In this document: piece by piece, positions 39,877 to 45,976 of the stretch | How positions within the stretch are numbered: position 1 is the first letter of the stretch | Layout: each line of letters opens with the position of its first letter | Origin: an uncultured Schlesneria sp. | GTDB lineage: Bacteria; Planctomycetota; Planctomycetia; Planctomycetales; Planctomycetaceae | Direction: 5' to 3' | NCBI GenBank assembly: GCA_903911795.1 | Contig: CAIWEX010000821.1 | Location: 1 to 53,023, forward strand | DNA length: 53,023 bases | The notes under the pieces: model-generated | Database searches by the model: none | The model's input: only the letters and a program-made list of their open reading frames with translations | Told to the model about the DNA's origin: nothing | Program-made: the position numbers and the translations under genes

Positions 39877-40262
39877 GGCACCCCTCCCTGCGTGTCGTCA
39901 ACGTCGATCAACATGACGAATCGGTGCAACCGCATTCCCAGAAATCAGTTCCGTCAAAGCCTTCATCAATTGCCAGTGCGAAGCCGTTGGCAAGGCTGAA
40001 TTGAATTTGAAAGAAAATCAAAAATCTGTTCTGCAGTATCCCATTCGCATACCTGCCTTTGCGGACTCCATTCCCGCAGGCGGACGATCATGTAGTGGAA
40101 ACCGGCAATTTCTGCAAGATGACGTAAACACGTTCAGAAAGTCGGGGGCCGTTCTGGCGAAATTGGCAGTGTACTTCGACCAATAAACGGCTTTTGTCAG
40201 GCTGGTCGGGCCTGGGTCGAATTGATGAAAAGTGTAACGCGTTGTTCGCCGTGTCTGTTCGA

Positions 40263-40379
40263 GTTTTTGACCACGAAGGTCACGAAGAGCACGAAGGGAT
40301 CGAAGAATGAAGCGTCAAATAATGAAGCAATTGGTCCTGGATACTCGCAGGCGTCGGTAAATCTCGACGGTGCGGCCAA
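40263..40379 (+). repeat. MITE-like element, left part, copy A
   Basis: It begins with the left terminal block GTTTTTGACCACGAAGGTCA then CGAAGAGCACGAAGG, continues through TCCTGGATACTCGCAG and CGTCGGTAAATCTCGA, and stops matching copy B after about 115 bases. Relative to copy B there is a short insertion after the terminal block and scattered substitutions. The right terminal arm is missing. Confidence 0.75.
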
Positions 40380-40450
40380 TACTCTTCCTGGCTAATGTTC
40401 GAGCTAAGCCGGCACGCGGTTGGGACTCGGCTTGAGCAATGGGTTAGACC

Positions 40451-40645
40451 TCACTCGCGCCGACCCGGCCGTTCCATCGCAATCTCAGAGAAGTTGAAGC
40501 CAAGCTTCTCGTAAAAGGTGGACACTCCCTCGCGGCCAGCGCAACATACGATTCGCGGCGATTTGTCGAAAGTCGCTGAGTTCGCGCGACGCTGTTCTTG
40601 TTCCGAGATCGAATGTCCGCCGTGTTTCGCAGACACCACAAACAT
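40451..40645 (-). pseudogene. C-terminal fragment of a GNAT-type acetyltransferase
   Basis: A 64-residue minus-strand frame contains RIVCCAGREGVSTFYEKLGF followed by FSEIAMERPG and a stop. The GVxxFYEKLGF...AMER arrangement is the usual C-terminal end of small GNAT N-acetyltransferases (acetyl-CoA-binding helix and last strands). The N-terminal two thirds, including the R/Q-x-x-G-x-G/A loop, is absent from any frame upstream, where palindromic repeats begin instead. It is most likely a gene remnant. Confidence 0.6.
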
Positions 40646-40676
40646 TCGAGCGGAAGCGTGTCACTGATGTCGCAGG

Positions 40677-40711
40677 GTAACCCCGGTTGCCGCTTCGGCT
40701 ACCGGGGTGAC
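40677..40711. repeat. Palindrome with ACCCCGGT arms
   Basis: GTAACCCCGGT, T, GCCG, loop CTT, CGGC, T, ACCGGGGTGAC. The outer arms pair over 11 bases with one mismatch and the inner GCCG/CGGC over four, separated by a T/T mismatch. It directly follows the N-terminal side of the GNAT remnant and is not tied to a gene end, so it looks like a repeat-type palindrome. Confidence 0.75.
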
Positions 40712-40755
40712 GAAGTCACAGGAAGTTTTGAAAGCCTAAAACGGGGTAAACTTCT

Positions 40756-40811
40756 CGTCGCGTTGCGACCCAGGTAGGCCGAGGACGGCCAGCCTGGGCC
40801 ACCCAGCGACG
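40756..40811. repeat. Long nested palindrome adjoining the MITE-like right half
   Basis: Outer arms CGTCGC (40756-40761) and GCGACG (40806-40811), middle arms CCCAGG (40769-40774) and CCTGGG (40793-40798), inner arms GGCCG (40777-40781) and CGGCC (40786-40790), loop AGGA. The right edge coincides with the left limit of the copy C repeat. Confidence 0.75.
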
Positions 40812-40900
40812 ATAAACCTCGAAGGTGCAATCAATCGCTCAATTGGAAAGCTTGTGGAATTCATCCTTCGTGCTCTTCGCGCCCTTCGTGGTGAATCATT
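40810..40900 (+). repeat. MITE-like element, right part, copy C
   Basis: It matches copy B from CGATAAACCTCGAAGG through CGCTCAATTGGAAAGC and then carries the intact right terminal block (40860-40892). That block is the reverse complement of the left terminal block of copy B (40988-41020) at 31 of 33 positions. The left part is absent. Confidence 0.75.
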
Positions 40901-40980
40901 CATGGGAGAATGGGTGTTCGACGACAGGACGTTTGTGAGTCCCCTTTTCTGGCCCCAAGTCGAGTTGGCAGACCGTTCGG

Positions 40981-41142
40981 GTTTTTGACCACGAAGGTCA
41001 CGAAGAGCACGAAGGATGAAGCATCACAGAATGAAGCACGTGATCCTGGATACTCGCAGCCGTCGGTAAATCTCGAAGGTGTAACCGATCGCTCAATTGG
41101 AAAGCTCGTGGAATTCAAGCTTCGTGCTCTGCATTTGCCCGC
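40981..41142 (+). repeat. MITE-like element, longest copy B
   Basis: It has the intact left terminal block (40988-41020), the middle shared with copies A and C, and a degraded right arm (about 41116-41142, where TTCGTGCTCT is still recognisable). Joining its left part to the right part of copy C predicts an element of about 160 bp with 33-bp inverted ends and no coding capacity. Confidence 0.75.
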
Positions 41143-41998
41143 AGTAAACAACGGGCTTCCAATCAACACGCCAACACTTTGAACCACCAGCGACTGCGGG
41201 TCAAGTTGACCACCTCGTTCGGCGCTGATCGGAAACGATCTCGAACGCAATTTTTCGGTCTTTGCGTAACGCCCCGGCTATTTTGTGATCGAAGGTTTCA
41301 CACTCTTGCCGGGCCAGAGAATCAGGTGTGCGGAGAGCAGCGCCACGGCAAGGGTCATCCACGAAAACGGAAATCTCCACAGCACGCCGTCATCAGCAGC
41401 GCGAGCCCTGTTTTTCGTCGCCAGGTGTCGAAGAAACCTTTCATGATTGCGATGCTGACGGAGTTCTTGGGGAACGCTTGTGTTCAACGGGCCGCGGCGA
41501 TCAGTTTTCCATTGTCATACCGCTCGGCTCCGTGTGCAACGCTTTATTCTGCCTTATTTTGCGAAGGGCCAACAACTGCGTTTTGATGCTTTTGTTGACA
41601 CGAACGTATGCGACGGTTGAGGATCGTCGGAGACGACGTCTTGATCATATCGCACACCGCCAAGACGAACAAACAGATTGATCGGAACATCAAAAATGTG
41701 TCAACTCCGTCGCCGTCGCTTTGTTGCAGGGACAGTTGTTGTTGACGAATTTCCGAATAGGCTGCAGGCACGTCGCCACGGGTTTCCAGATCGAGAATGC
41801 CCCTGTCGGAATCGTGGATGACGGCGGGGTGGACCAGGCGCTGAAGCAGCGTCTGGGTTCACAAGAGGAACTTGGGGCACGCATACTACGATGTTGCCTC
41901 TCATAAACCCAGACATCCAAAGCGACGTCTGCGCCACCCCGCGCCACCCCGCCGCAAGAATCGTGATGATAGGTGGCTCCTTATACAATTCCAGCCCT

Positions 41999-42652
41999 TC
42001 AATCGACGTCATCCAGCGAATATCGCTTCAGGCTCTGCACGATATGGCGAGGTCTGCAAACGACGATACCGATGTCATCCCACAGGTCGCCGGACGGTAG
42101 GCGGACCATTTCGACCAGCTTCCTCGGCAGGACTACGAAATCGTGCCAAAGGTATTCGCGAAGAAATCGTTCCTTGCGGATGTAATTGCAGAAGCCATCG
42201 GTTGAGACCACGATCAGTCCCTGCGATGTGGGATGCGAAAAGCCGACCGGCTCTGCCTGTCCTGATCCCAGCAGTGGCTTGCGAATTTGTCGTTTCGTTA
42301 AGTTTTCAATGCCGCCGTCATGAACGAACCACGCCTGGCTGTCACCAACGCTGGCACCAATGATCCCCTGGACAGTCACCGCGAGCACGACACAGGTCGA
42401 TTCTCCATCGCCGATACGATGGTCAATCTGGTGCAGCAGCGAGCACCAGGCTGATTCGTCAAGATCGACGGATGCCGTCCCCTTCAGCTCCGCGATGACG
42501 GCTCGCGAAGCCTGTGCTCCATTTCCAATCCCACCCGCTCCATCTGCAACCGCAAGGACAACACCCCCTTCGAATTCAAAGACGGCAACGTGATCTTCGC
42601 ACTTTGATTTCGCAGCGACGGTCACCTGCGCTGTTTCGAATGATGCGATCAT
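41999..42652 (-). CDS. PP2C-family serine/threonine protein phosphatase
   Basis: The 217-residue protein is a compact PP2C domain. The metal-ligand motifs are visible in order: SKCEDHVAVFEF (Asp), VVLAVADGAGGIGNGAQASR (DG), GIIGASVGDSQAWFVHDGGI, LIVVSTDGFCNY (DG) and GDLWDDIGIVVCR (final DD). It removes phosphate from Ser/Thr residues of partner proteins in the cytoplasm. No Ser/Thr kinase is in the window. It is 267 bp downstream of the 1018-residue SUKH/ankyrin gene on the same strand, so the two may be co-transcribed. There is no clear ribosome binding site. The 267-bp gap shows nothing else. Confidence 0.92.
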   Translation of the reverse strand: MIASFETAQVTVAAKSKCEDHVAVFEFEGGVVLAVADGAGGIGNGAQASRAVIAELKGTASVDLDESAWCSLLHQIDHRIGDGESTCVVLAVTVQGIIGASVGDSQAWFVHDGGIENLTKRQIRKPLLGSGQAEPVGFSHPTSQGLIVVSTDGFCNYIRKERFLREYLWHDFVVLPRKLVEMVRLPSGDLWDDIGIVVCRPRHIVQSLKRYSLDDVD

Positions 42653-42919: not shown

Positions 42920-45900
42920 TCATTTCTCCAATTGAATTCTACGCAAAGCTGCCTCATGAGCGTCGAAGCCCTGTTCCAAGGCAGAACGGGCCGCTTCGAT
43001 CAGATCGTTGCGAGGAGAGGGTTGATAGGTTCGTTTCTTGATCGCTTTCTGAATGTCGAACTCAGAGACTTCCAGTGTCTCCCAGATCGGTTTCAGGTCA
43101 GGCCATTGCAGGATCGGAGCAAACAGGTATGTCGGCCAATTTGCACATCTCAAGTAATCTTGACGGGCAGATCGCATATCGTTGAATGTCACTTGCGGTC
43201 TTCGCACGTACAAGGTGAGTCGATAATGGCAGTCCTCACCATAGGCCTTTTCTACTCGAGTCACCGCAGGTGTCTGGATTTGAATCGTGATCATGATGTC
43301 AAGGTCCTGAGGCAGTTGGTCGGCGGCCGCTTTGAGAATCGCAATGCCTGCAGCGTCGGGTGATGGTTCTCCGGCAGGTGGTGGAATCTCATCCCTCCCT
43401 TCAAGAATTGGCAGACAGGAAAAGCCGAGTCCATGTTCCGCCCAGATGAATGCTGTGCGACGATACTTGTCTGCTTGATGTGGATCCGCGCCATGCTTGA
43501 TCAGCCACTTGACAGCATCCCGAGATCCATACTGCACGGCCAGATGGATCGGAGGAGCTCCGTCTTCGTTCACGGGAGCGTTAAAGTTGGTTCCCGCTTC
43601 AGCCAGTCGTTCCCACACGTCAGGGTGCTGCCAGACCTCGGGCGACTTCATCACCGCGGGCCAGAGGGAATGCGGTAGAACTTGCATCAATTCCCGAAAT
43701 CTCGCGATGTTCATCAACTGGTATCGCTCCCAGCTCTCTTTCAACTGCCGGGGCTTCAAGAGACGCTCGGCCAGCACGGCCTTTAACAGGTCCGTTTTCG
43801 CGTCCATCGTCAAGTAATCGACGACTGTCAAGGAGACATGAGCACCGTATTCCTGGTGTGTCTGGGATAGCTTTCCCCCAGCGTCCAACCACTTCTTCAG
43901 GCGTTCGAAGTTGTTATCTCGAATGGCAAGCAGCCATTCGGGAAGATTTGCATCCGGCCTCATCCCCAAGCCGTCAAGAAACTTGTTCACGGATCTGGCT
44001 GTGGGAATTCCCATTTCGAGGATCGAGTCGGCCGTCATTTTCAACATCTCGCCTGACATCGCTCGTGAAAATGACCCAAGGACAGATTTGAAGTCCATCG
44101 AGACCAACTGTCCTGCTTTTTTTCCTTCAGTAACAAGCATCAAAGTCGACGGTGCTGGTCGTCCCATGGGATCGACTGTCGTGAGACGACCTATCGGCAA
44201 TAAGAATGATGGAACAGATTCAGCCCGTGCCGATTCAATCTGTGCTTCAAGGCTGTCCGGGTTTTCGCCAGAATCGGTACCCGCGACAGCAAAGAATTTC
44301 ACGACGTCCATCGGGACCAGCATTCCGGAGCTTTTCGTAACCAGATGATTGGGGGTCGGCTTGCCTCCATTGGTTTCAAGAAGAAAATAACGGTACTCGG
44401 GCGGCAGAACAATCTGAAATCGCTGCTCCAATTGAGTCAGTTCATCGGACGTCAGTTTGCGGCCAGCATCTGTCCACACAATCCGTCCCGAGATGTCGTT
44501 CGTTTTTATGGAGGGTGACAAGGGCGGTTCATCGTCCCATAGGATTTCCAACCCGTGTTCTTCATCCCAGTCGATTGAAAAAAAGACTCGACCAACGACA
44601 CGTTCGTCGAGTGATTGCAGGGCGATCTGGCCACTTGAAACATGCTGAAGAATACTTTCAACGGTTACTTCACCGCTTAAGTCGTGCTCGTAATCCTCCA
44701 GTTCGAACTCGTCCATCTGCGACTCGTAGTTGCGGAAGCTGTCGACCAGTTGAAGTTGCCAGCCTGGCACCAATGTCTTCAGTTCCTGCTTCAAACGATC
44801 AACTCCAGAAAGCAGTTCTTTGAGGCAGTTCAGTTGTTTGGACGGGAATTCCAGTCGCAGCGAAAAACTCGACCAATCACAAGCTAGCACTGGATCTTCC
44901 CACGTGATGGAAGCCTGTCCACGCGATGACTGGAATTCGTATTCACCGAGGTCCTTCAATCGCTCATTGATGGCGGAGTCGCCAATCGGATCGACCGCAA
45001 TCAATTCAGCATGGTCAGCCAGAAACGTGTTCGTCTCAGAAATTGCAGTCTGCATTTCTGGTTCCAGTTCGGAGACCGGGCGACGTTTGTACGCCTTGTT
45101 GAGCTTCAACAGCTTGCGCTTGGTTGACTCGACATTCGGAACAGTTCCCGACCGGGCCGCCTTCTTCAGCTTCTTCTGGATTTCGTTCAAGTAGTCATGG
45201 ATTTTTGCGGCGTCATCAATCTGCACGGCGAGGTCCGATTGATGGGCACGTATCGCGTCGAGTTCCTGTAACCGCTTCTGGCGTGTATATCCTGCAATCG
45301 TCCGAGGATCACCGTGTCGTTTGAGATCCTGTTGAAGATCCAGAAGATTTGCCGTCACATATCGTTCCAGTTGTTGCGAGATTTCTTCGCGCGATTCGTG
45401 GTCGCCGGAGGAAGCCGATGCGGCCTCGTTCACGGGGGCTGACCTGGTCCAACCGTGTGCCGATGCCAGCTCTGGAAGGTTCTGGATCAGGTTGTCTCTC
45501 ATGTGGTTGATCAAGTCCGATCCTTTGAGGTTGCTGAGGCTGTTCAAAAGATCATCGGGGCCGCGTGCTTCGCCCAATTGAAAGACATCGAACGGATTGG
45601 CACTTCTGGCAGACCTGATGGCAGTGGCGATACGTGGTGCTCCGACTGTCTCCAGAGCCTTTGCGGTAAGTTCGATGCGGTCTTGTTGCTGTCCACCGAA
45701 CTCGTAAACAGAATGAGTGCGCCAATTGACGGGATCAACGCCATCACGGTTATCTTGCAGGAATTCTGCCACGATGAGCGTATTCAAGCCCGCAGGCGAA
45801 ATCAGCGGGCGAAACGTCTGGTAGCGATCCAGATGCGATAAGTTTCGCACGTATAACCCGGATAGCTCAGCCCACTCGGAATAGTTGCGCGCGTCCATGA

Positions 45901-45976
45901 AAGTGACCTCGATTTGAAGCAACGCGGGATTCGCTTGGCGAGACGACATGAGAAATGATTTGGACGGAACGCCCAT
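42920..45976 (-). CDS. Giant multidomain protein with SUKH (SMI1/KNR4) domain and ankyrin repeats
   Basis: The 1018-residue soluble protein appears to be a string of immunity-type domains. Residues about 27-165 (ELSGLYVRNLSHLDRYQTFR; ELTAKALETVGAPRIATAIR) recall DUF4375/DMP19. About 195-340 is charged and helical (coiled coil). About 345-485 is beta-rich, ending VFFSIDWDEEHGLEILWDDE, a DUF6985-like phrase. About 505-640 is a SUKH domain (LTQLEQRFQIVLPPEYRYFL, LETNGGKP). About 675-760 and 790-850 are ankyrin-like (PPIHLAVQYGSRDAVKWLIK, HGADPHQADKYRRTAF). The last 150 residues are unassigned. SUKH, DUF4375 and ankyrin domains occur in immunity proteins of polymorphic toxin systems, but no toxin gene is in view. 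An internal ATG at 45898 with GAGG upstream could be the true start. Confidence 0.75.
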   Translation of the reverse strand: MGVPSKSFLMSSRQANPALLQIEVTFMDARNYSEWAELSGLYVRNLSHLDRYQTFRPLISPAGLNTLIVAEFLQDNRDGVDPVNWRTHSVYEFGGQQQDRIELTAKALETVGAPRIATAIRSARSANPFDVFQLGEARGPDDLLNSLSNLKGSDLINHMRDNLIQNLPELASAHGWTRSAPVNEAASASSGDHESREEISQQLERYVTANLLDLQQDLKRHGDPRTIAGYTRQKRLQELDAIRAHQSDLAVQIDDAAKIHDYLNEIQKKLKKAARSGTVPNVESTKRKLLKLNKAYKRRPVSELEPEMQTAISETNTFLADHAELIAVDPIGDSAINERLKDLGEYEFQSSRGQASITWEDPVLACDWSSFSLRLEFPSKQLNCLKELLSGVDRLKQELKTLVPGWQLQLVDSFRNYESQMDEFELEDYEHDLSGEVTVESILQHVSSGQIALQSLDERVVGRVFFSIDWDEEHGLEILWDDEPPLSPSIKTNDISGRIVWTDAGRKLTSDELTQLEQRFQIVLPPEYRYFLLETNGGKPTPNHLVTKSSGMLVPMDVVKFFAVAGTDSGENPDSLEAQIESARAESVPSFLLPIGRLTTVDPMGRPAPSTLMLVTEGKKAGQLVSMDFKSVLGSFSRAMSGEMLKMTADSILEMGIPTARSVNKFLDGLGMRPDANLPEWLLAIRDNNFERLKKWLDAGGKLSQTHQEYGAHVSLTVVDYLTMDAKTDLLKAVLAERLLKPRQLKESWERYQLMNIARFRELMQVLPHSLWPAVMKSPEVWQHPDVWERLAEAGTNFNAPVNEDGAPPIHLAVQYGSRDAVKWLIKHGADPHQADKYRRTAFIWAEHGLGFSCLPILEGRDEIPPPAGEPSPDAAGIAILKAAADQLPQDLDIMITIQIQTPAVTRVEKAYGEDCHYRLTLYVRRPQVTFNDMRSARQDYLRCANWPTYLFAPILQWPDLKPIWETLEVSEFDIQKAIKKRTYQPSPRNDLIEAARSALEQGFDAHEAALRRIQLEK

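Follow-up and report, generated by a model that had tools for sequence, protein, structure and literature searches.

An SUKH-ankyrin fusion protein of an uncultured Schlesneria as a candidate orphan polyimmunity protein

We examined a gene for a large fusion protein in a 53,023-nucleotide stretch of DNA from an uncultured Schlesneria sp. (hereafter the window). On balance, and with modest confidence, we favor the explanation that its product is an orphan polyimmunity-type protein that acts against toxins of neighbors and is exchanged as a single-gene cassette. The protein would serve as a cytoplasmic antidote, in which an N-terminal module is joined to SUKH and ankyrin-type parts and, in one subgroup of the family, to a C-terminal domain as well. 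Most likely, it would bind toxins delivered by neighboring bacteria and block their active sites, with separate domains covering different toxins; it would be kept without a partner toxin while the single-gene cassette passes between lineages. We infer the cytoplasmic location, the binding of toxins, the identity of those toxins, and the domain that binds them. For the binding and blocking of incoming toxins, SUKH would be the best-supported part, and the acidic DUF6985-like domain is a candidate.

The gene and its domains

The gene is a single uninterrupted open reading frame of 1,018 codons on the minus strand, as an earlier sequence-only reading had described, with a start that we correct to residue 27 (position 45898). 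This is most likely the true start, giving a protein of 992 aa, because homologs begin at the position of Met27 and a Shine-Dalgarno-like GAGG lies a few bases upstream of its ATG. The frame is a real coding gene, because full-length relatives of 1,000 aa are present in two other genera and dN/dS is about 0.2. The gene is under purifying selection: dN/dS was ~0.20 between the full-length homologs in genomes G015 and G508 and 0.25 between G483 and G429, which are rough values from a simple Nei-Gojobori count at high synonymous divergence. Third-position GC was 57.8% in the fusion gene and 60-66% in its neighbors, a slight difference that fits a foreign origin. The features of the locus are as follows (window positions; residues numbered in the 1,018-codon frame):

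42920-45976, minus strand: fusion-protein open reading frame as given, 1018 aa
42920-45898, minus strand: likely true coding sequence from Met27, 992 aa
45599-45898, minus strand: N-terminal helical domain, residues 27-126; helical model; conserved in 15 of 15 homologs, truncated in G502
45404-45598, minus strand: variable low-confidence linker, residues 127-191; pLDDT <50 in parts, lowest identity between homologs
45008-45403, minus strand: helical/coiled-coil segment, residues 192-323; near-invariant G-D-x-R motif (HGDPR in the window protein)
44522-45007, minus strand: DUF6985-like alpha+beta domain, residues 324-485; PF22481, E 4e-7; pTM 0.76 when modeled alone; net charge -23 in 162 aa
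44186-44455, minus strand: Pfam-matched part of the SUKH (SMI1/KNR4) domain, residues 508-597; PF09346, E 5e-9; PF14568, E 3e-6
43391-43945, minus strand: ankyrin-type repeat region, residues 678-862; PF13637, PF00023, PF12796; canonical repeats at 782-846
42923-43390, minus strand: C-terminal conserved domain of no known family, residues 863-1018; 60% identity to G015
41999-42652, minus strand: PP2C-type phosphatase gene, 217 aa; PF13672 (PP2C_2), E 1.5e-9

The first half of the protein forms a separate module, here called the N-module, which consists of the helical domain, the coiled coil, and the acidic DUF6985-like domain. AlphaFold models, built from five sequences, gave a helical N-terminus, then a long helix at residues 232-276 (206-250 in Met27 numbering) that fits the coiled coil proposed earlier, and then the alpha+beta domain. 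The DUF6985 assignment was upheld: residues 412-483 matched PF22481 at 31 bits (cut-off 24.5) over profile positions 63-136 of 148, and 12 of 15 homologs matched at E<=0.1. The domain carries a net negative charge in each of the 15 homologs (-5 to -32, two partial copies included). Foldseek and VIA-align matched neither the DUF6985-like model (best Z 3.9) nor the N-module model convincingly to a solved fold, results that do not imply a new fold in either case.

The N-terminus had also been likened to DUF4375, which we take to be equal to DMP19 (PF14300). Here the window protein scored 15.8 bits (cut-off 25; E 0.022), a match was seen in two of 15 homologs, and hhalign against 17 planctomycete DMP19 domains returned probabilities of 48-66% over part of the domain. 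The two are faintly alike around an ALxxIGA motif and, in a single comparison, over the helical end of the domain, whereas the window protein falls below the cut-off and lacks the DMP19 signature NGGxxQYFxN. A DMP19/DUF4375-like N-terminal domain is, by its sequence, a distant possibility at best.

In the second half, the SUKH domain was borne out by both superfamily profiles (PF09346, 37.2 bits against 25.4; PF14568, 28.3 against 27), and the proposed ankyrin repeats were borne out in part. PF13637 matched residues 782-846 at 34 bits (cut-off 22.7, E ~1e-8), and most of residues 678-781 is divergent ankyrin-type sequence. SUKH and ankyrin profiles matched all six fused homologs, among which the ankyrin-type region is conserved. 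Residues 870-1018, by contrast, are no part of the repeats and belong to a distinct domain (863-1018). Pfam returned nothing for this domain, and its best PDB match (E 0.37) is not convincing; among 170 genomes of the taxonomic family, the domain is confined to G000, G015, and G508.

A scattered family and a hypervariable slot

The N-module is carried by 15 planctomycete genomes, in nine as a stand-alone or partial protein and in six fused to SUKH and ankyrin-type repeats; three of these six fusions also have the C-terminal domain. Its distribution is sparse at every level: 15 of 398 genomes of the class (one match marginal), eight of 170 in the family, and one of 15 in the genus of the window. 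A profile search of genome contigs with the N-module returned four loci, all planctomycete, and a search of genome contigs with the whole protein returned nothing. Modules have been gained and lost within the family. The tree needs three changes of fusion state, a number that one gain plus losses in G273 and G638 could account for. In the G638 copy of the N-module (L065 8955-10058, minus strand), a large part of the coiled coil and the tail of the DUF6985-like domain are absent; this copy is possibly decaying or frameshifted.

Exchange of the gene can be followed in g38, a Gimesia-like genus in which a family member in G483, G429, and G273 is flanked by a small lipoprotein gene on one side and an esterase gene on the other (L057 9480-12470, with syntenic loci L058, L059, L099, L100, and L102-L110). 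This is a single-gene slot, the contents of which differ between close relatives. G483 and G429 are sister species that share 94-99.8% identity in the proteins of the flanks but 54.5% in the slot protein; on crossing either slot edge, DNA identity drops from ~94-97% to ~60%, and dS is 1.47 inside the slot and 0.13-0.21 in the flanks. One allele has been replaced by a distant one. We considered faster evolution in place as the cause of the low protein identity and rejected it, because synonymous divergence is raised in the slot as well. Between G483 and G273, synonymous divergence matches in slot and flanks, and the two N-modules are therefore ordinary orthologs; the G273 protein stops directly after the N-module, without the SUKH-ankyrin half.

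We surveyed 15 g38 species with an ortholog of the esterase, of which 14 had a readable slot. The family was present in three, an unrelated stand-alone SUKH protein in two (Pfam, 2e-8), a WD40 protein in three (one truncated), a membrane protein in one, three small unknown open reading frames in one, and a small 87-aa frame alone in one; one slot held no clear gene, and two were empty. As a separate observation, a conserved family of 87-103 aa proteins, with no confident Pfam match, occurs at the slot in five species:

L103 6995-7258, minus strand: 87-103 aa slot family
L104 7078-7341, minus strand: 87-103 aa slot family
L108 5310-5573, plus strand: 87-103 aa slot family
L099 6246-6557, plus strand: 87-103 aa slot family
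L058 8879-9145, minus strand: 87-103 aa slot family

Gene surroundings and rival explanations

In agreement with the earlier remark that no toxin lies nearby, we recognized none beside any carrier, using the gene lists of the 15 carriers and Pfam scans of selected neighbors. The scanned neighbors were ordinary, for example a sulfatase, FtsK, an MFS transporter, a GDSL lipase, and a beta-lactamase-like protein. Outside g38 the carriers share no gene context: no specific neighbor gene was common to two of them, even between carriers whose proteins share 70-72% identity, and the few neighbor matches, at 30-35% identity, were an ABC ATPase and a type of gene that starts with a prepilin-like segment. 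Within the genus of the window, an ABC transporter on one side of the fusion gene is conserved; the left flank is non-syntenic in five genus relatives, in which none of the genes of that flank was found next to the transporter. The swap slot itself was seen in the g38 relatives only. RHS repeats were found in 12 of 13 genomes searched, which settles little, and the fragmented genome of the window gave no match.

Three further observations concern the window and its genome. Contig C137 (L004, L006) carries two adjacent SUKH genes, a possible small immunity locus, and the genome has ten SUKH matches in all. Degenerate direct and inverted repeats of the CACGAAGGTCACGAAGAGCACGAAGG type lie at 40257-41130 of the window, within a stretch without called genes (39877-41998).

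SUKH and ankyrin domains serve other processes too, and we weighed three other explanations, given here in falling order of probability. Anti-phage action is unlikely, although the observations offer it some footing: a phage-defense or other intracellular defense protein, with SUKH and ankyrin domains that sense or bind a viral protein, would sit well in a hypervariable single-gene slot with a scattered distribution, both of which are also typical of defense genes, and PADLOC gave a weak match to the candidate defense protein PDC-M72A (3e-4). That match is confined to the ankyrin region, however, and the protein has no recognizable effector domain (nuclease, NADase, or pore). Phages, plasmids, and viral contigs yielded no relatives, which says little about the target. 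An accessory regulator unconnected with toxins is more doubtful still. One example would be a DNA-mimic regulator in the style of DMP19, which binds HU (PMC5722371); the possible remote similarity of the N-terminus to DMP19 and the strongly acidic domain in all homologs point in this direction. Yet the DMP19 match is partial and below cut-off, the acidity lies in the DUF6985-like domain rather than in the DMP19-like one, and no regulator gene is conserved nearby.

The least probable of the three is a protein-protein interaction scaffold for Ser/Thr signaling with the adjacent phosphatase. The sequence-only reading had correctly pointed out a PP2C gene downstream on the same strand; it lies 267 bases from the fusion gene and has the expected PP2C aspartate motifs. 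It had proposed repeated PP2C adjacency as a check, and the adjacency did not recur: PP2C was a neighbor in none of the 13 other carriers searched, the nearest being a different PP2C at 7.5 kb (G070) and one at 13 kb (G015), and two close homologs of the window PP2C (in G013 and G036) adjoin unrelated genes. Nor would a housekeeping scaffold be expected to show allele swapping. The non-conserved adjacency largely refutes a signaling scaffold already. We rejected the PP2C partnership, which is seen only in the window, and we judge from the gene comparisons that the phosphatase lies outside the system, in a pairing local to the window. The PP2C of G015 belongs, with a vWA protein and a kinase, to a TerY-P-like cluster (L132 683-4274) that looks unrelated to the fusion gene. 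The earlier alternative that the domains had been recruited for intracellular signaling thus found no support, no other examined homolog having a PP2C neighbor; its other half, an orphan defense against the toxins of neighbors, fits the domain content, the scatter, the lack of recognized toxins nearby, and the allele swap in g38.

Relation to known immunity proteins

We compared the fusion protein with three characteristics of polyimmunity proteins: (i) at least two different immunity-type domains, (ii) no adjacent toxin gene or cassette, and (iii) locus content that differs between close relatives. The protein combines SUKH and Imm-Ank, with the role of DUF6985 unassigned; the gene lists of 15 carriers agree with the second characteristic, and the g38 slot shows the third. 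Against the polyimmunity explanation, we found a toxin partner nowhere for the N-module family and no tested function for the N-module or DUF6985 in the literature, and the g38 slot also houses WD40 and membrane-protein genes, which are not immunity-type. To us the fusion protein is real and unusual within a known class; its N-module appears uncatalogued, and its relatives show clear cassette exchange. A bolder version, which we offer tentatively and think may well be wrong, is that the N-module is an undescribed Planctomycetota immunity family, which acts alone and as a platform for block-wise addition or loss of SUKH-ankyrin and C-terminal antidote modules, with whole alleles swapped at a single-gene slot.

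If the polyimmunity explanation is right, planctomycetes hold a natural set of one-gene immunity cassettes, and what each module contributes could be tested directly in sister species that are otherwise nearly alike at this locus, by contrasting the N-module alone (G273) with the full fusion (G483, G429). The N-terminal domain and DUF6985, both of unknown function, would also gain a likely immunity context.

The protein is probably a new variety of polyimmunity protein, a class reported in 2012 (Zhang et al., PMC3482391). Members of this class combine SUKH and ankyrin-type domains, usually without associated toxin genes, and SUKH and Imm-Ank are among the commonest polyimmunity partners (PMC3482391). 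The missing toxin is expected, because that work already described polyimmunity proteins that have no toxin beside them. The window protein resembles them in having several immunity-type domains, SUKH and ankyrin included, and no toxin gene; it differs in that its N-module and C-terminal domain matched no catalogued immunity domain, and in being encoded by a solitary slot-exchanged gene rather than in a small immunity-gene operon. A second parallel is the rAID-encoded orphan SUKH proteins of Bacteroidales, which use an acidic interface to bind a nuclease effector with an affinity in the nanomolar range; E. coli is protected by orphan SUKH proteins that share only 37.7-39% identity with the cognate immunity protein (PMC12247911). 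The SUKH domain, the orphan state, and divergent alleles are common to both, whereas here a single gene stands without a recombinase array, its SUKH domain fused to unrelated domains.
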